Shown: positions 1,746 to 24,952 of the stretch, in pieces | How positions within the stretch are numbered: the first letter of the stretch is position 1 | Layout: the number at the start of each line of letters is the position of its first letter | Source of the DNA: a virus | DNA: 25,230 bases | Direction: 5' to 3' (one strand) | IMG/VR virus record: IMGVR_UViG_3300020428_000075 | Coordinates: 1-25,230 of that record | Position numbers and translations under genes: made by a program | Notes under the pieces: model-generated | Seen by the model: the letters and a program-made list of their open reading frames with translations, nothing else | Told to the model about the DNA's origin: nothing | Databases searched by the model: none

Positions 1746-2291
1746 TTAAGCTACTTTCGGTAGGTCAACAACTAACTCTTCGACGGCTTTCGCTGTCTTG
1801 GAATTATCAACTACTTTCTTGACGAGCTTGCCGTCTGCCCAATCAATGGACTGTTTAAGCCAAGCTTCATATGTCTGGCAATCCTCGTTGGTGACTGCCT
1901 TATATTTAGCTTGGATATCGGAGCACATAGTGTGCAAGCAAGCCCATTGGATGTGCGCTTGGTTCATCCTGATGTTAAGGTTAGCTGTTAGATCATCCGA
2001 TGCTATCGCTTCAACGTCGCCGCCTAGTTTGTCGGCTCGTTGATTAATTTGCTCAACGATAGAGTCATAATAATCCTTGGCTTTACGGCGTGCGGCGTAG
2101 ACACCGCGCATGATATAGCCGTGTGCTACAGAGTAGCCAGTGAATCTATAGGGATTGGCTTGGCCGTTATCATCTTCGCCAACGCTAGTTGCCTGAAGCA
2201 ATGGTGCGAAATCAAGGTAGATTTCAGCCTCAGTTTGGATGGTGTCGTTATGATTTGTATTTGATGTTGGTTTTACAATTGCTTTTTTCAT
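1746..2291 (-). CDS. Hypothetical protein, 181 aa
   Basis: I do not recognise this protein. The start at 2291 (MKKAIVKPTSN) is chosen because TTGGAG lies six to ten bases upstream. The reading frame stays open further upstream, but through GC-rich leader sequence that does not look coding. After a polar N-terminus the protein is mostly helical, with YRFTGYSVAHGYIMRGVYAARRKAKDYY near residues 50-75 and several tryptophans and cysteines in the second half (QWACLHTMCSD, EAWLKQSIDWADG). It has no membrane span or catalytic motif that I can name. It lies behind a roughly 300-base structured leader, which may control its expression. Confidence 0.78.
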   Translation of the reverse strand: MKKAIVKPTSNTNHNDTIQTEAEIYLDFAPLLQATSVGEDDNGQANPYRFTGYSVAHGYIMRGVYAARRKAKDYYDSIVEQINQRADKLGGDVEAIASDDLTANLNIRMNQAHIQWACLHTMCSDIQAKYKAVTNEDCQTYEAWLKQSIDWADGKLVKKVVDNSKTAKAVEELVVDLPKVA

Positions 2292-2340: not shown

Positions 2341-2584
2341 CCTTGTGAGGAACTCCCGCTGAGAGGTTCCGCTCTTGCAAGGTGAAACAGCCACGCAAAG
2401 CATGGGCCGTGCGTATGCACGGCTATGCGTGGTTCTCGGTGTCAACATCTGATTGGGACGCAAGCCCCCACGCGAGAGCGTGGACTTGGGCGGCGGAGGC
2501 TCCGCAATCAGTTGTTTACGCCGATGGTTTACCTTGATAAAGCAGCGGGTTCTCGGGGGAGTTTCTCACTATTGAATCTCCCCC
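2341..2584 (+). ncRNA. Highly structured GC-rich block, candidate ncRNA (or structured leader of the minus-strand gene)
   Basis: The 2292-2600 gap has no credible gene but holds four consecutive stems. (1) 2341-2348 pairs with 2375-2382 and encloses GGAAC/GTTCC (2349-2353/2366-2370). (2) CCACGCA/TGCGTGG (2391-2397/2426-2432) encloses a 7-bp hairpin (2406-2412/2417-2423). (3) 2444-2455 pairs with 2505-2516 (11 of 12) and encloses two hairpins, 2461-2488 with a GAGA loop and 2494-2504. (4) GGGGGAG/CTCCCCC pairs at 2555-2561/2578-2584. Stem 1 contains two G-U pairs that hold only on the plus strand, and GAGA is a GNRA loop only on the plus strand. A plus-strand RNA is therefore favoured, although the same DNA is the leader of the leftward 181-aa gene. 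No known RNA family was identified by eye. Confidence 0.45.
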
Positions 2585-2600
2585 ATATACTCATCTATAT

Positions 2601-2840
2601 TCAAGTAGCGTATACAGATGCGTATTCGAAGCGTCGGTTTATTCCCTGCTGTTCGTATAGTTTGCAGAGTTCTAGTTCAAGTTCGTCTATTGATATGCGT
2701 ACTTGATCCATCCGACATTCGTCATCCCATGAGATTAGGTTGCGATCCCAGAGGTCTTTTAGGTTAGCAAGCTCCTCATTCAGTTGTTTAATACTGATGC
2801 GGATAGCGGTCATGTCTTCGTAAAAGTTATATGTATGCAT
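2601..2840 (-). CDS. Hypothetical small helical protein, 79 aa
   Basis: This unrecognised protein consists mainly of two amphipathic helices with heptad-like leucines and isoleucines (MTAIRISIKQLNEELANLKDL and DQVRISIDELELELCKLYEQQG), so it is probably a small coiled coil or helical hairpin. The two halves share an 'RISI..L..EL..L' pattern. The ATG at 2840 has AGGAG nine bases upstream, which settles the start. It is the first gene of the leftward unit, facing the 850-base divergent region, and the structured block 2341-2584 follows it. A regulatory or inhibitor role is possible, but no evidence singles one out. Confidence 0.7.
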   Translation of the reverse strand: MHTYNFYEDMTAIRISIKQLNEELANLKDLWDRNLISWDDECRMDQVRISIDELELELCKLYEQQGINRRFEYASVYAT

Positions 2841-2880
2841 AGTGTGTACTCCTAAGTTGATTTAAGTTGTTAAGACACAC

Positions 2881-3455
2881 CGTGTTCTCACGATGATAGG
2901 GGTACGTGGCCATATCGATAGCGATACTTGTCAATGATTCCTCTTGGAACCGCCTCTTCGCGGGGCGGTGAATTATCCGTGATACAAATTGGATATCTCC
3001 ATAGAAATCACGCCCATAAATGACAGCGCATACTTATGCGCCTGTCTACGTGGCGATCTTGATTTCTACAGAGCCACCCGCAGATACGCCATCGAGGATG
3101 GCGACATCGTATCAGCCTTCTAATATACGGATAATTTATCGCATCATTTACTAGTAGATGCTTGATATGTTCTGCGCCAACCCGGTATTAGCAACAGCCA
3201 AGAGGGGCGCAAGTACACCTATCAGAGAGAGATATTATCATCCGAAGGATGATTCAATTCGAGCGTACTACGCCATCGACGAGCACTTCGAGGAGATGGC
3301 GACAGCTTATGAAGAGAAGCTTGGCATCAAAGAAGCTCGGTCACGGATGTGTTCATGAGTCATCTTGACGAATGAAGGGCGTATCATTTTACCGCTACGC
3401 CCATCGATAGTTCGACAATTCGAAAATCTTAATATGTATTGTCGAGCCGAAGATG
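2881..3455 (+). ncRNA. Dense array of nested stems in the divergent region, candidate large ornate RNA
   Basis: The 2841-3694 interval between the divergent units carries many strong inverted repeats. ACCGCCTC/GGGGCGGT (2949-2956/2962-2969) has a TTCGC loop and a T-G pair that favours the plus strand. TAGAAATCA/TGATTTCTA (3002-3010/3060-3068) encloses CGCC/GGCG and the long hairpin 3022-3046. CGCCATC/GATGGCG (3087-3093/3097-3103) lies inside GATA/TATC. TGCGCC/GGCGCA pairs at 3173-3178/3206-3211. ATCATCC/GGATGAT pairs at 3237-3243/3247-3253, and CGCCATC/GATGGCG recurs at 3271-3277/3295-3301. CATCTT/AAGATG (3361-3366/3450-3455) encloses two perfect hairpins (3377-3402 and 3412-3445). The overall style resembles GOLLD- or ROOL-type giant phage RNAs, but I cannot assign a family. 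Strand and boundaries are uncertain. Confidence 0.45.
3158..3358 (+). CDS. Doubtful 66-aa ORF inside the structured region
   Basis: This ORF reads MLDMFCANPVLATAKRG and continues into a hydrophilic, helix-prone C-terminal half (DEHFEEMATAYEEKLG). No ribosome site stands before its ATG, and I recognise no family. Several perfect hairpins run through it (3237-3253, 3271-3301 and 3304-3321), which is more typical of a structured RNA than of a gene. It is recorded because the second half has a protein-like composition. It could equally be a chance ORF. Confidence 0.2.
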   Translation: MLDMFCANPVLATAKRGASTPIRERYYHPKDDSIRAYYAIDEHFEEMATAYEEKLGIKEARSRMCS

Positions 3456-3538
3456 GTTCGTGGTCTTAGGGGTAAACGTATACGTTTACACCGCCCACGG
3501 ATATGCTGTTCGAGTTCGCCTTCTGACGAGCACTTCGA
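3278..3538 (+). repeat. Pair of 14-base direct repeats
   Basis: GACGAGCACTTCGA occurs at 3278-3291 and again at 3525-3538, about 247 bases apart, in the otherwise gene-poor divergent region. The flanks differ. Both copies happen to encode DEHFE in their open frames. They could be a protein-binding site or a leftover of duplication. Confidence 0.45.
3472..3489. promoter_or_regulatory. 18-bp perfect palindrome
   Basis: GTAAACGTATACGTTTAC is a perfect 18-bp palindrome in the divergent region, about 150 bases upstream of the putative late promoter. Such a site can bind a dimeric regulator or replication protein, or form a short hairpin in RNA. No second copy was noticed in the window. Confidence 0.5.
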
Positions 3539-3620
3539 AGCGAGACAGACTAAGGCGTACATCTCGACAGCAAACCAAACCAGTTGCAACAAAGCTTCAT
3601 TATTAACAACCGAATTGGAC

Positions 3621-3651
3621 TTGACAGGTTTATGTAATTCCCCCTTATATA
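3621..3651 (+). promoter_or_regulatory. Putative sigma70-type promoter of the structural operon
   Basis: A perfect TTGACA -35 box (3621-3626) is followed after 19 bases by TATATA (3646-3651), a 4/6 match to the -10 box. A start near 3658 would give a very short leader before the small terminase gene. It is the only convincing host-type promoter I found ahead of the long plus-strand gene run. The spacing is slightly longer than optimal, which suits a regulated promoter. Confidence 0.5.
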
Positions 3652-3668
3652 TCCCCCGGAGGGGGAAT
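3637..3668. promoter_or_regulatory. 8-bp dyad flanking the -10 box, possible operator
   Basis: ATTCCCCC (3637-3644) and GGGGGAAT (3661-3668) form a perfect inverted repeat around the -10 region. A closer partner, TCCCCC/GGGGGA (3652-3657/3661-3666), offers an alternative hairpin at the 5' end of the transcript. The arrangement fits a repressor site or a 5'-end stabilising stem. Confidence 0.4.
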
Positions 3669-3717
3669 GACGATCCTGAATAGGAGTGACGCATATGCCC
3701 GAACCATATCTCAATAA
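3667..3717 (+). CDS. Possible 16-aa leader peptide overlapping the small terminase start
   Basis: An ATG directly follows GGAGGGGGA and opens a 16-codon frame (MTILNRSDAYARTISQ, stop at 3715-3717). It overlaps the first 23 bases of the small terminase gene in another frame. Ribosomes on it would pass over the terminase AGGAG site, so it could couple or attenuate terminase translation. There is no evidence beyond position and ribosome site. Confidence 0.2.
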   Translation: MTILNRSDAYARTISQ

Positions 3718-4087
3718 GTTACAGCAAAAAGAAATAAGAAAGAAACAATTATCACCGTTGAGGTTACAGATGATAGAGCACGTTGTCGCAACAGGTGATG
3801 GGCACTCGGCAACAGCTAGAGCATTGAATTGTAACAGGTCTTCTGTAGTACAGGCCATGAATGATCCATATGTTCAAGAGGTATTACAGCAGAAGGTAGG
3901 TGAACGTCTTACCAGAGCCAGTGCAATAGCCAGTAACACACTCATTAAGTTAGCGAGACAGGGTAAGTCTGAGTACGTACAGTTACAAGCGAGTGATTCC
4001 ATTCTCGATCGTACAGGGTTCAAGCCACCCGATCGCTCTATACATCAGGTACAAGGTGACGTTAGTATACGTATCAACCTCGAGTAG
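3695..4087 (+). CDS. Terminase small subunit (probable)
   Basis: This 130-aa protein has the layout of phage small terminases. An N-terminal helical part includes SPLRLQMIEHVVATGDGHSATARALNCNRSSVVQAMNDP, a helix-turn-helix-like segment at about residues 22-60. Then come helices with LTRASAIASNTLIKLARQGKSEYVQLQASDSILDRTGFKPPDR, the 'SEYV.LQA...ILDRtGfkpP' signature of these proteins. It would bind the packaging site and present DNA to the large subunit. The ATG at 3695 is chosen over GTG 3686 because AGGAG (3682-3686) sits eight bases before it. It heads the late operon behind a putative promoter. Two small genes separate it from the large subunit. Confidence 0.75.
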   Translation: MPEPYLNKLQQKEIRKKQLSPLRLQMIEHVVATGDGHSATARALNCNRSSVVQAMNDPYVQEVLQQKVGERLTRASAIASNTLIKLARQGKSEYVQLQASDSILDRTGFKPPDRSIHQVQGDVSIRINLE

Positions 4088-4254
4088 AGGTAGGGGGGGT
4101 TAAAAACTACCTGCCATTGCGAGTATATGTCCTACTCACTCAATTTTCTTAAAAAAAAGCACTTTCATCCTGTGCGTGTACTAAGTTCCTCTTCTTTGTA
4201 ATTAATACTCCTTCGATGTTTGAATTATTTTTTAAATGCTTGGAGTTAGATCAT

Positions 4255-4491
4255 ATGCATATTGGTTCTTTAAAGAAGCGAATGATAAAGTTAAGTAAGC
4301 GCCTTCATCGTTCTATTGATGGTTCTCCTCAAGGGAATAAGTTAGAGGAGTTGGTTAATGAGTTTGAGTCTACTGTAGACGATGCTCATCGTTCTTTGTC
4401 TGATGGTCGTGGTAAGGCGAATAAAATATTAGACAAGTCTCTTGCTGAGAAGGCAGAGAAACCCAAAGCCAAACCTAAAAAGAAAAAGTAA
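4255..4491 (+). CDS. Small lysine-rich protein, 78 aa
   Basis: I do not recognise this protein. It begins MHIGSLKKRMIKLSKRLHRS, is helical and strongly basic at the N-terminus, acidic in the middle (NEFESTVDDAHRSLSDG) and ends with a lysine/proline tail (KAEKPKAKPKKKK). The ATG at 4255 is preferred over the upstream one at 4216 because GGAG lies nine bases before it. The basic tail could bind DNA or RNA, and the position between terminase genes suggests a packaging accessory role, but both points are inference. Its stop codon shares a base with the next start (TAATG). The 167 bases upstream hold only a weak GGTAG/CTACC stem and AT-rich sequence. Confidence 0.65.
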   Translation: MHIGSLKKRMIKLSKRLHRSIDGSPQGNKLEELVNEFESTVDDAHRSLSDGRGKANKILDKSLAEKAEKPKAKPKKKK

Positions 4492-4682
4492 TGAGCTTTT
4501 GCTCAGAACTCCGGCATGAGGATTTGATGAGGCTCCGCAAGGTGCTTCGTCAGATGTTTAAGGTCCGTACCAAGCGTCATGAGGTATCTGATTGGGAGCT
4601 TGATAGGTGGATTGAATCCATTGGGCCTAAAGTACGCGAGAAAACTGTAAAACAGGCAGTAGATAGAGGTCTTGTGGAGTGA
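4491..4682 (+). CDS. Small basic protein upstream of the large terminase, 63 aa
   Basis: This unrecognised, highly charged helical protein (LRHEDLMRLRKVLRQMFKVRTKRHEVSDWELDRWIESIGPKVREKTVKQAVDRGLVE) starts at the TAATG junction with the previous gene and overlaps the large terminase start through GTGA. That is tight coupling on both sides. The pattern 'DWELDRWIESIGPKVREKTVKQAVDRGLV' is typical of small phage proteins encoded next to terminase genes, but I cannot name a family. A role as a terminase partner is likely from context only. Confidence 0.7.
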   Translation: MSFCSELRHEDLMRLRKVLRQMFKVRTKRHEVSDWELDRWIESIGPKVREKTVKQAVDRGLVE

Positions 4683-6220
4683 GTTATGAATTTAATTATA
4701 CGCCAGCAGGTGAAGTCCTTAAAACATTTCTTAAAGATGAAAGTTACTTCCGCGGTATACGTGGTCCTGTGGGAAGTGGTACCTCCTCTGCTTGCTGTGT
4801 CGAGATATTTCGTAGAGCGTCTGAACAAGTTGCAGGACAAGATGGAGTCAAGCGAACACGCTTCGCGATAATCCGTAATACCAATCCTCAGCTGAAGACA
4901 ACTACGGTAAAGACTTGGCTTGAGTGGTTTCCTGAACATATCTTTGGTAAATTCAACTGGTCTGTACCTTTTACCCACAATATCAAGCTTGGTTCGATAG
5001 AATGTGAGGTAATTTTCCTGGCATTGGATCGCCCTGACGATGTAGACAAACTGTTATCTCTTGATCTGACAGGGGTGTGGATCAATGAGGCCAGAGAAAT
5101 CAGTAAATCTGTGGTTGATGGGTGCACAATGAGGTGCGGCAGGTACCCTTCTATGAAGGATGGGGGGCCGACTTGGTATGGGGTAATCGCTGATACCAAT
5201 GCGCCAACCGATGACCACTGGTGGCCCATTATGGCGGGAGAAAGCCCTATTCCAGACTATATTCCAAGGGAAGAAGCAGCGATGTTGCAGAAACCAAGCA
5301 ACTGGACCTTCTTTACCCAGCCATCTGGCATGGTTGAGAAGTTTGATAGCACAGGAAAGACCATTCTAGGCTATGAAATGAACCCTGAATCAGAGAATAC
5401 GGACAATTTAACCCCTGATTACTACAACAATATCATTAAAGGTAAGACGAAAAGCTGGATTGATGTCTATGTCATGAACCGATTGGGTTCAATTGATGAA
5501 GGAAGGCGGGTTTATCCTACATTTAATGACGATGTTCATGTTGCCCCAGAGAGTTTGATCCCAATTGAAAGCCTAGACATCTATGTGGGCATTGATTTTG
5601 GTCTAACACCCTCTGCAATCTTTGGTCAGCGCAGACCTGATGGCAGATGGAATATCTTACGAGAACTTGTGACCACTGATATGGGCACGGTTCGCTTTGC
5701 GGAGACTTTAAAATATGAAATTAAAAGACATTTTCCGGGTTTTGGGCCTGATCGCTTTAATTTCTACGGTGATCCTGCTGGGGATCAGCGCGCCCAAACG
5801 GACGAAACCACACCCTTTCAAATCCTACGATCTAACGGCATCGTGGCCCTGCCCACCAACACCAATGATCCTGTTGTACGGATAGAAGCCATCGAGGGGA
5901 TGCTCAACCGTATGGTTGATGGACAGCCGGGGCTGTTATTAGACCCGAGTTGCAAGACATTGCGCCAAGGCTTCCGTTCTGGCTACCAGTATCGCCGTTT
6001 ATCTGTCTCAGGTGATGCCAGATACGAGGATAAACCCAATAAAAATAAATATTCACACCCTCATGATGCCCTTCAGTACATGGCAATTGGCGCGGGGGAA
6101 GGAAAAAACATTCTTCATGGCGGCAGATCATTCAAACAAGTCAACATTAAACCGGAGTCAGGATTTTGGAATCGACAAAGAAATCAACGGAGGGGGTCAA
6201 GGGCTACATATGGTATGTAG
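4679..6220 (+). CDS. terL: Terminase large subunit (packaging ATPase and nuclease)
   Basis: This 513-aa protein powers DNA translocation into the prohead and cuts the concatemer. The N-terminal ATPase part shows a Walker A-like loop, GPVGSGTS (about 29-36), and a Walker B with catalytic glutamate in LTGVWINEARE (about 130-140, Glu137). The C-terminal RNase H-like nuclease has the expected acidic residues: Asp306 in GIDFG, Asp365 in YGDPAGD and Asp463 in HPHDALQY. The usual Walker A lysine is replaced by threonine. The GTG start at 4679 overlaps the previous stop and is the only start that keeps the N-terminus before the P-loop. The length is normal for the family. The 3' end overlaps the start of the next gene by about 55 bases. 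Confidence 0.93.
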   Translation: MSYEFNYTPAGEVLKTFLKDESYFRGIRGPVGSGTSSACCVEIFRRASEQVAGQDGVKRTRFAIIRNTNPQLKTTTVKTWLEWFPEHIFGKFNWSVPFTHNIKLGSIECEVIFLALDRPDDVDKLLSLDLTGVWINEAREISKSVVDGCTMRCGRYPSMKDGGPTWYGVIADTNAPTDDHWWPIMAGESPIPDYIPREEAAMLQKPSNWTFFTQPSGMVEKFDSTGKTILGYEMNPESENTDNLTPDYYNNIIKGKTKSWIDVYVMNRLGSIDEGRRVYPTFNDDVHVAPESLIPIESLDIYVGIDFGLTPSAIFGQRRPDGRWNILRELVTTDMGTVRFAETLKYEIKRHFPGFGPDRFNFYGDPAGDQRAQTDETTPFQILRSNGIVALPTNTNDPVVRIEAIEGMLNRMVDGQPGLLLDPSCKTLRQGFRSGYQYRRLSVSGDARYEDKPNKNKYSHPHDALQYMAIGAGEGKNILHGGRSFKQVNIKPESGFWNRQRNQRRGSRATYGM

Positions 6221-23116: not shown

Positions 23117-23272
23117 ATGTCAGATTATAAAATACTTCGAAGAGTTGAATATCCATCTGTCCATGATTTTCTTGAAGCTTTGCACGATAAGGAAAAGGGT
23201 GATGACACTAAGTATAATGCGTGGATTGCCGCTTGCGACAAAGTCAAAACTGATTTTCCAAAGGGGGATTAA
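23117..23272 (+). CDS. Small tail-fibre assembly chaperone-like protein, 51 aa
   Basis: This short gene reads MSDYKILRRVEYPSVHDFLEALHDKEKGDDTKYNAWIAACDKVKTDFPKGD. The pattern 'R..eYPs..dfLeal......w......vK..fPK' is found in many small phage proteins encoded right after a fibre or tail gene. AGGAGAAGTC precedes the ATG at 23117, and the stop TAA directly abuts the next ATG. Its last residues and the DNA around its stop recur at the end of the 108-aa protein at 24599-24925. It is probably a folding or assembly partner of the preceding fibre, by position. Confidence 0.7.
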   Translation: MSDYKILRRVEYPSVHDFLEALHDKEKGDDTKYNAWIAACDKVKTDFPKGD

Positions 23273-24592
23273 ATGAGTAATTATCTATCAGGTCTTAATC
23301 AACTTAATCCTCAAGTAAAACGTCACAATGGTGGTACTGCTACTCTTACTTTAGATTCTGCTGGCACAAGCAATGCAACGATGCTCTATGTTAATGGTGT
23401 GGCCCAAACTCCGGGGGTTGATTTTAATGTAAGTGGATCGACACTTACCTGTACTTCAACTCTACCAGCCGGAACAAACATTGCGACTACCATCCAGTAT
23501 TTTTCTACAGGCGTAGTTAATGTTCCTTCCGACAGTTCTGTGACTTTGGCAAAAATGGCTACAGGCGTAGTTGCTGTGCCACATATTGAAGGCATTGCTG
23601 GTAATATTATCACCGGTTTAGCAAGTAATTTAACTATTACTTTAACTAATCATTCACCAGATATAGACGTGGTTTTTAAAGAAGGTGGAACAACTGTCGC
23701 GACTGTGACCAATCAACAAGTCGATCTCGGTTCTGTAGTTGTTGCAGTCCCATCAGCAGTTTACGGCCAAACTACTGGAGACACTATTACCATTACTGTT
23801 TTAAATTCCAGTGGGATAGTATCAGACAATTCAGTAAATAAAACTGTTGTTGTTGCGCCCGGGTTGCAAGCAAATCCAGCATCATCTCTCTCAAGTTTAC
23901 TTTCAGATCGGGGCTGGACTGATGGATCGGCAACTGAAGGAGTGTACTGGTTCAACAATGGAACCAACACTTTTCCAAATGTCATTAAAAATATATCAGG
24001 CAATACTTGGTTACTTTTGCAAAAAAACTTTGTCCCTCACGCATACAAAGGTGGCGATAGTAACAGTGGTTCTGCCTTATCATATGGTCTTATGAACTCT
24101 AGTGGTAATGCTATTATCACTACTGCAATAGATAATAATACAACACCATCGTCTTCCACGTTAGGAGTAAACCATGCACGAATGAGTGTAACGGGGTGGG
24201 CGACAAGTTCGTTTAGTGTGCTTGGCGCATACGACAGTGGCGATAGTTTTAGAACTTATTCTGCGGCGGCGGCTGATTTACACGCTCTTATTGTTCTCGG
24301 CCAAGCAAATAATAATACTTTTGTTTCGAACACTGTCTACACTATGTCAGGCGGTTCAAATCCTTCTACGATGTATTTAGTTTTTAATACTAATTTCAAT
24401 GCTGGTGACGGTGATGCCGCGAAAATGTCCATGACTGAATACAATGATAATACTCAGGATAGACATAATACAGCGGCAGAATTTCATGGTGTTTCGTGGT
24501 TTCAAGACGGCGGCACAGCTTACACTACTACTAATGCAGATTCTAATATTCAAGGAGCCACTCAAGGTGACTTCAGTTTTTGGGTAAGGTAG
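23273..24592 (+). CDS. Tail fibre or receptor-binding protein, module 2 (439 aa)
   Basis: The protein begins MSNYLSGLNQLNPQVKRHNGGTATLTLDSAGTSNATMLYVNGVAQTPGVDF, a beta domain common at fibre N-termini, followed by SVTLAKMATGVV, which parallels ITLAKMA in module 1. A middle beta region (about 110-195) resembles an Ig-like or repeat domain (LTNHSPDIDVVFKEGGTTVATVTNQQVDL). The C-terminal part, from about 205 (SSLSSLLSDRGWTDGSATEGVYWF), is Ser/Asn/Gly/Thr-rich and ends DFSFWVR. This would be the tip that contacts the host. Its start directly abuts the stop of the 51-aa partner. Confidence 0.75.
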   Translation: MSNYLSGLNQLNPQVKRHNGGTATLTLDSAGTSNATMLYVNGVAQTPGVDFNVSGSTLTCTSTLPAGTNIATTIQYFSTGVVNVPSDSSVTLAKMATGVVAVPHIEGIAGNIITGLASNLTITLTNHSPDIDVVFKEGGTTVATVTNQQVDLGSVVVAVPSAVYGQTTGDTITITVLNSSGIVSDNSVNKTVVVAPGLQANPASSLSSLLSDRGWTDGSATEGVYWFNNGTNTFPNVIKNISGNTWLLLQKNFVPHAYKGGDSNSGSALSYGLMNSSGNAIITTAIDNNTTPSSSTLGVNHARMSVTGWATSSFSVLGAYDSGDSFRTYSAAAADLHALIVLGQANNNTFVSNTVYTMSGGSNPSTMYLVFNTNFNAGDGDAAKMSMTEYNDNTQDRHNTAAEFHGVSWFQDGGTAYTTTNADSNIQGATQGDFSFWVR

Positions 24593-24598
24593 GAAAAA

Positions 24599-24925
24599 AT
24601 GTATATTAAAGATAAATATCAAAAGACATCTGATGCCAATGTTTTTGTGAAAGCTGACGGAACAGAAATTAGTCGTGATAAGTTGGTTGAAGTCTTAAAT
24701 GAGCTTTTACAAAATAGAGTTGATGAAAATTTAGGACCACATGATGAAGCATACATTGTTGATTTAGATACGCTTGTGGGAACAGGTTACTTTGAAGCTC
24801 GGAAGAAAGCCTATGCTTCTGCTGAGAGCCAACTAGAAATGCAGTACGATGATTTAATAGATAGTACGACAACTTGGAAAGATCACGTTGCTTCTATTAA
24901 GTCTAAATTTCCAAAGGGGGATTAA
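24599..24925 (+). CDS. Fibre-associated chaperone-like protein, 108 aa
   Basis: The N-terminal half (MYIKDKYQKTSDANVFVKADGTEISRDKLVEVLNELLQNRVDENLGPHDEAYIVDLDTL) is a separate small domain. The C-terminal half (AYASAESQLEMQYDDLIDSTTTWKDHVASIKSKFPKGD) matches the 'E.QLdmqYdD....ttW...v..iK.kfPK' pattern of small fibre-assembly proteins. It parallels the 51-aa gene after module 1. AGGAAAA precedes its ATG. It is probably a dedicated partner of the 439-aa fibre. Confidence 0.72.
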   Translation: MYIKDKYQKTSDANVFVKADGTEISRDKLVEVLNELLQNRVDENLGPHDEAYIVDLDTLVGTGYFEARKKAYASAESQLEMQYDDLIDSTTTWKDHVASIKSKFPKGD

Positions 24926-24952
24926 ATGAGTATAACCAAAATAGGAGACTAA
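24926..24952 (+). pseudogene. 8-codon ORF at a module boundary, possible remnant fibre start
   Basis: Directly after the second FPKGD stop, the repeated ATGAGTA opens MSITKIGD and then stops. MSITKIG-type openings are common in phage fibres, so this may be the stub of a deleted third fibre. Equally, it may be a short leader that carries the AGGAG site of the next gene (24943-24947). Confidence 0.3.

Follow-up and report, generated by a model that had tools for sequence, protein, structure and literature searches.

We found that a virus record of 25,230 bases (hereafter the window, meaning the whole stretch of DNA analysed) contains two separate structured elements, RNA A on the left and RNA B on the right, beside its terminase genes. 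Comparison of three virus lineages shows that the predicted folds of both are kept by base-pair compensation while the letters turn over. These data support reading the divergent spacer as the site of a large structured RNA, as proposed in a preliminary description of this DNA, with changed boundaries: the suggested limits of 2881-3455 did not hold, as the element is larger (2867-3610). Each of the two RNAs is closed by predicted pairing between its own ends and is without a conserved open reading frame. With moderate confidence, we propose that A and B are free-standing non-coding RNAs of the phage, in the style of GOLLD and ROOL and with no kinship to either.

Genomic setting and relatives

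The leftward genes of the window span 30-2840 and comprise an ArdC-type anti-restriction protein and three genes without assigned function, while the rightward genes begin at about 3690 and encode the terminase small subunit, two small proteins, the terminase large subunit and a podovirus head-tail connector. The leftward ArdC-type protein, at 30-923, carries a zincin-like peptidase domain (Pfam PF18818/PF08401). By terminase, the nearest named phages are Pelagibacter phage EXVC031P Hodr (59%) and Methylophilales phage MEP301 (42%), BcepC6B standing at 41%, and the virus is probably a temperate marine podovirus with BcepC6B-like terminase relatives; the temperate lifestyle is suggested by a tyrosine integrase on the contig of L114, 99.4% identical to the window. 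L114 (NZHS01000019.1) was binned with a marine Flavobacteriales metagenome genome, and is probably a misplaced virus contig.

Relatives were sought through the 181-aa protein encoded left of RNA A, the terminase small subunit and DNA patterns, and these searches returned only L001, L114, L085/L089, L090/L106 and L002/L083/L084. Of these, L001 and L114 represent the virus of the window itself. L090 is an 8.7-kb contig whose DNA is 86% identical to the window across the region, and L085/L089 is a near relative whose contig starts inside B at 3208, so that the place of A is unseen. L002, which equals L083 and has a near-identical copy in L084, is a 34.8-kb contig with a 92% identical terminase and a mostly diverged spacer; L002/L084 and the window share about 76% identity over the core of A, and B can be aligned only in short islands. 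A and B lie at the same position in the window, L090 and L002/L084, and co-occur in every lineage in which both sites are readable (three virus lineages). The locus is arranged as follows:

1746-2291, minus strand: leftward gene of 181 aa, left of RNA A; 41% identity to its L002 counterpart
2341-2584, plus strand: RNA A, about 245 nt; long outer stem carrying a three-way junction
2601-2840, minus strand: leftward gene of 79 aa, between A and B; 34% identity to its L002 counterpart
2867-3610, plus strand: RNA B, about 744 nt, with 18-19 helices alike in the predictions for the window and L090
3621-3650, plus strand: promoter-like TTGACA-18-TTATAT, placed after RNA B and before the terminase genes; conservation extends to L003
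3686-4087, plus strand: terminase small subunit (terS), PHROG 2538, likely start ATG 3695
4679-6220, plus strand: terminase large subunit, PHROG 10250

Two sets of candidate relatives were rejected. L105 and L107-L113 proved to be chance pattern matches, and the spacers of L003 and L094 are structured through an inverted copy of a neighbouring gene and are not homologous. In L003, a more distant relative, the divergent spacer (4078-4530 and 4705-5203; also in L094) repeats the neighbouring leftward gene in inverted and decayed form (74%), giving a potential hairpin with arms of about 500 bp each.

Folding strength resolves two elements

Fold energies were compared with those of dinucleotide shuffles on both strands. 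For the span 2881-3455 the fold energy is -194.7 kcal/mol on the plus strand (shuffle mean -159.5, z -5.3) and -205.1 kcal/mol on the minus strand (shuffle mean -162.3, z -5.7), and none of the 60 shuffles was as low; the unusual structure described there, better than that of shuffled sequence, was thus confirmed. The full span of RNA B (2867-3610) reached z -7.1 (plus) and -7.25 (minus) and that of RNA A z -9.1 and -6.5, and low folding energy relative to shuffles was also seen on the exact spans in L090 and L002. The 240 bases of the 79-aa gene region between them are weakly structured (z -2.2/-1.8), so the suggestion that nearly 1.4 kb (2341-3690) is unusually structured was overstated, there being two elements and not one. 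Coding stretches of like length gave z of about -2.6 to +0.5. In a sliding fold of the first 6.5 kb, windows with z < -3 clustered at 1601-1850, 2351-2700, 2901-3150 and 3351-3600, with a single extra one at 1801-1950 and none in the coding DNA rightward. Inside the first cluster, a strong hairpin at 1680-1740 (z about -6) is followed by a T run on the minus strand and is likely the terminator of the leftward 181-aa gene.

The individual stems first described within the spacer are present: a 9-bp stem (3002-3010/3060-3068), an 11-bp hairpin with one bulged base (3022-3046), and a stem at 3361-3366/3449-3454 around hairpins 3377-3402 and 3411-3446. The count of at least eight strong inverted repeats depends on definition; four of at least 10 nt, inside or touching the span, were listed. 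Conservation of these hairpins is mixed, as the 9-bp stem is kept in L090 together with a 15-bp helix (2965-2979/3128-3142) and about 15 others, whereas L090 lacks the 3361/3454 stem, the hairpin at 3377-3402 and the outer half of 3022-3046.

RNA A has a compensated three-way junction

The separate folds of the window, L090 and L002 agree for RNA A, each giving a long outer stem and P1, with P2 and P3 in a three-way junction. Its core consists of the following:

2376-2537, plus strand: core of RNA A, with P1 at 2378-2389/2525-2536
2390-2396/2427-2433, plus strand: P2, inner part 2405-2412/2417-2424
2436-2457/2502-2524, plus strand: P3, inner stem 2459-2473/2478-2490 and hairpin 2492-2501

Across the core alignment (170 columns), 94% of cells pair, and both sides have changed in 12 of the 59 pairs as compared with 4.0 in shuffles, a value reached by none of 500 shuffles. 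Sliding the partner by 1-3 columns lowers pairing from 94% to 34-46%. The most invariant letters are in P3 (CTCGGTGTCAACA.CT.ATTGGGAC and GCGGAGGCTCCGCAAT.AGTTGTT). The plus-strand consensus is 11 kcal/mol better than that of the minus strand, with 12 G-U against 2 C-A cells on the plus strand, making A a clear plus-strand RNA by prediction, settled as far as sequence allows.

Of the loci searched with a covariance model of the A core, R1, those of this virus group alone yielded full-length plus-strand copies (138-186 bits); the model's minus-strand matches (20-25 bits) are the same sites read in reverse. No match to R1 was found in the stretches of Hodr and MEP301 that were read. A hint of mRNA mimicry, from 12-mers common to RNA A and a 63-aa gene (4529, 4586), was dropped as they are not kept in L002.

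RNA B is a large nested fold

RNA B is predicted to be organised into a 5' domain and a series of 3' hairpins, within a pairing of its ends:

2867-2873/3604-3610, plus strand: end pairing TTGTTAA/TTAACAA, present in both separate folds
2875-3352, plus strand: 5' domain, closed by 2875-2884/3342-3352 (ACACACCGTG / CACGGATGTGT, one bulge)
2886-2905/3213-3232, plus strand: P2, in window and L090 folds
2908-2922/3160-3172, plus strand: P3, in window and L090 folds
2926-2937/3144-3155, plus strand: P4, in window and L090 folds
2965-2979/3128-3142, plus strand: the 15-bp helix
2998-3014/3052-3072, plus strand: nested stem with hairpin 3027-3040, corresponding to the 3002-3068 stem described earlier
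3173-3178/3206-3211, plus strand: stem TGCGCC/GGCGCA
3221-3264, plus strand: most conserved motif (95% in L002), consisting of the ATCAGAGAGAGA strand of P2 and a hairpin
3237-3253, plus strand: that hairpin, ATCATCC-GAA-GGATGAT
3265-3331, plus strand: hairpin insert, in the alignments shorter in L085 and absent in L090
3353-3572, plus strand: 3' hairpins at 3353-3375, 3403-3454 (inner 3410-3416/3441-3447), 3458-3500 (inner 3469-3492) and 3504-3572

The helices that B shares with L090 nest into one fold and span up to 470 bases. Its closing helix does not vary between the window and L090, and in L114 one base is inserted in it. Short open reading frames of 66, 99 and 76 aa in the window have no counterpart in the L090 list of open reading frames, and there are indels whose lengths are no multiples of three.

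Folded separately, the window and L090 gave 242 and 210 pairs. The two folds have 141 pairs in common on the plus strand and 103 on the minus strand. All 12 substituted pairs among the 141-148 shared ones stay paired, six by double changes and six through G-U; the two-sequence shuffle control for B gave 10/500, which is weaker because there are only two rows and the structure was chosen as common to both. In the window's fold, chosen blind to L090, double changes number nine (2.9 expected) and broken pairs 32 (55.5 +- 4.5 expected); the reverse test from the L090 fold gave 12 double changes against 2.9 and 25 broken pairs against 51.9. The randomisation behind the expected values deals the observed substitutions at random to like bases and ignores their clustering, and the comparison of B as a whole draws on two or three distinct sequences.

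The homologous spacers thus show conserved pairing with compensatory changes in the relatives. Five pairs of the 15-bp helix differ between the window and L090 and all are paired on the plus strand, four through G-U and one by A-U to U-A. The nested stem changes from C-G to A-U at 3014/3052, the TGCGCC/GGCGCA stem has a G-C to U-A double change in L090, and further double changes fall at 3360/3368, 3412/3445 and 3507/3569 in the 3' hairpins. In L085, the hairpin 3377-3402 (at 3381/3398) and the stem at 3412/3445 are kept by double changes, and the sequence of the neighbouring hairpin is replaced.

In the more diverged L002, P2 is rebuilt with other letters at 5143-5178/5464-5499 (mean pair probability about 0.9). 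The free fold there gives ATCTC/GAGAT followed by TGATTCGGGGGGTCAGACATGCC with GGTATGTCAGGTTCCACTAATCA, placed relative to the 44-base motif like TTCTC-ACGA-TGATAGG with CCTATCA-GAGA-GAGA in the window. Common to both is a signature in which TCTC-NNGA-TGAT faces ATCA-GAGA-GAGA: next to the helix lies an internal loop with tandem G-A, where we infer sheared pairs.

For the strand of B, the window itself folds about equally well in both directions; the L090 span gives z -6.9 (plus) against -3.6 (minus), the L002 fold -267 against -215 kcal/mol, and broken pairs are fewer on the plus strand in the window/L090 comparisons. The larger number of shared plus-strand pairs (141 against 103) and the 15-bp helix point the same way. 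A plus-strand origin is therefore favoured for B, and the original guess of plus-strand RNA was the better one, for A as well (window z -9.1 against -6.5). Helices of B picked with Watson-Crick pairs only contain 11 G-U against 18 A-C cells (both directions), so that its plus strand is not proven.

Several smaller observations concern repeated or variable parts of B. The insert at 3265-3331 is 67 bases long; its L085 version (about 57-101) is flanked on both sides by AGCGAA, and it is absent at L090 2978. Sequence related to the insert lies at 3086-3105 of the window, and GACGAGCACTTCGA recurs near 3526. The hairpin ATCATCC-4-GGATGAT has two copies in L090 (3330-3347 and 2949-2966), one of them in the terminase leader, which also share the flank GATTCCAT, and one copy each in the window and L002; the duplicated hairpin looks like a movable or protein-bound element. 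A short element, AGTCTGCGNYAGCAGTC, occurs twice in the L002 spacer (about 5397-5415 and 5745-5760) and once in L090 (about 3213-3232).

Comparison with known RNA families

Searches of the window with Rfam 15, at gathering and permissive thresholds, returned no match even at E 5, and those of L090 and L002 returned only chance-level matches to unrelated families. The GOLLD, ROOL, OLE and HEARO models did not reach their gathering cut-offs in the window, nor did those of GOLLD and ROOL in L090 and L002. A and B are thus not members of these four families, in agreement with the first impression that nothing ties the spacer to GOLLD or ROOL. DNA similarity to named phages and plasmids was likewise not found, and there are no tRNA genes in the window or in the stretches of the relatives that were read. 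Judged against the collections searched here (Rfam 15, named phages, plasmids), A and B look like two new families within a known kind, the large structured phage non-coding RNA: their predicted folds are compensated in related phages and neither element holds a conserved open reading frame.

GOLLD is often found near tRNA genes, a typical and not strictly defining trait. Like A and B it is borne by phages (also prophages) and has an elaborate fold kept by covariation, and at about 800 nt it is close to B (about 744 nt); it differs in its frequent tRNA neighbours and in that its Rfam model matches neither A nor B. ROOL, borne by phages and prophages, is about 660 nt and ornate, like B, and differs by its tRNA-island setting and, again, the lack of a match of its model to A or B. 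Both form RNA-only cages of unknown function, that of GOLLD being homo-oligomeric (PMC12286853). In vibriophage ICP1 the most abundant phage transcript is an RNA of about 800 nt in which no coding sequence is predicted (PMC7567579). By description only, this RNA resembles B in being large, non-coding and placed in a gene-free space (between gp139 and gp140) with no tRNA genes; it differs in having been found by RNA-seq.

Very few large phage RNAs are known, and A and B add two unrelated candidates in one small genome. They would offer a small, tractable system for asking what such RNAs do, B having about 150 pairs common to two viruses. As they lie beside terminase genes with no tRNA genes near, their function can be studied apart from the tRNA islands in which GOLLD and ROOL sit. 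The base helices stay fixed while the hairpins around them turn over fast, leaving a natural record of which parts matter.

Proposed mode of action and alternative explanations

The promoter-like site at 3621-3650 was not listed by our promoter scan, its second hexamer being outside the scan rules. With this site placed ahead of terS, B would not have to serve as leader of the terminase mRNA. Neither A nor B is preceded by a convincing plus-strand promoter in the scan or followed by a T-rich intrinsic terminator, so that processing is assumed. These negative results weigh against free-standing RNAs, as do the invariant closing helix of B and the base inserted into it in L114. We propose that the spacer is a non-coding RNA locus with both RNAs encoded on the plus strand, B occupying the divergent spacer next to the terminase genes and A lying to its left, beyond one leftward gene. 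Both would be part of a rightward (late) transcript, be released or trimmed at their closing stems, and act in the infected cell as folded, free-standing RNAs; by analogy with GOLLD and ROOL, they may serve as a scaffold, a ribonucleoprotein or a decoy. The end pairing, the lack of a conserved open reading frame, the absence of a run-up to a start codon and the promoter-like site 3' of B together favour free-standing RNAs. More speculatively, A and B might be two parts of one RNA machine, abundant in the lytic cycle, each building a defined particle or ribonucleoprotein by itself or jointly with the other; this we regard as unlikely. If true, it would add to GOLLD and ROOL a third, unrelated lineage of ornate phage RNA, the first to have two different RNA components.

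A possible, though doubtful, alternative is that B, and perhaps A, is a cis-acting element of the nascent RNA that lets polymerase resist pausing and termination before the late genes, as the put RNA of HK022 does. That RNA is structured, belongs to a temperate phage and lies on the sense strand of the genes to be expressed, as B does directly before the terminase genes, and put RNAs work as structured nascent RNA with no dedicated protein (PMC9378689); the conserved B hairpin, moreover, recurs in the L090 terminase leader. However, put RNAs are about 70 nt, have two stem-loops and act on early operons (PMC9378689), and B is ten times larger, with many more helices. Nor does its position fit an element downstream of an early promoter, given the conserved promoter-like site between B and terS and the lack of a convincing promoter before B.

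It is improbable that A and B are instead antisense or processed regulators of the leftward operon (79 aa, 181 aa, 133 aa and ArdC), after the model of the small immunity RNAs of P1, P4 and N15. A lies antisense to the gap between two leftward genes, and an mRNA read leftward through this gap would contain the complement of A. Phage and satellite RNAs complementary to gene leaders are known (PMC7567579), and the phage is probably temperate. Yet no stretch of A or B of at least 13 nt matches elsewhere in the window on either strand, the 11-12-mer matches are at chance level or not conserved, and B is far larger than known antisense RNAs.

Quite improbable, too, is that the palindromes act as DNA, as a cos or pac packaging start beside terS or a replication origin, with RNA folding a by-product. 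Packaging sites often adjoin terS, both strands fold well in the window, and some hairpins arise by insertion or replacement, like mobile palindromes. Against this, substituted pairs in A and in the 15-bp helix of B are kept through plus-strand G-U, which are mismatches on the minus strand, and the helices of B reach across up to 470 bases nested in one fold. GC skew gave no clear origin sign at the spacer.

Finally, it is very improbable that B is read on the minus strand as the 5' leader of the early, leftward operon: that operon must begin somewhere right of 2840, the minus strand of the window folds equally well (z -7.25) and Watson-Crick-only helices give more A-C than G-U cells, but L090 and L002 fold worse on the minus strand, which also has fewer shared and more broken pairs.

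Elsewhere in the window, identical 25-base stretches at 23255-23279 and 24908-24932 end two tail-region genes, both encoding the ending FPKGD.
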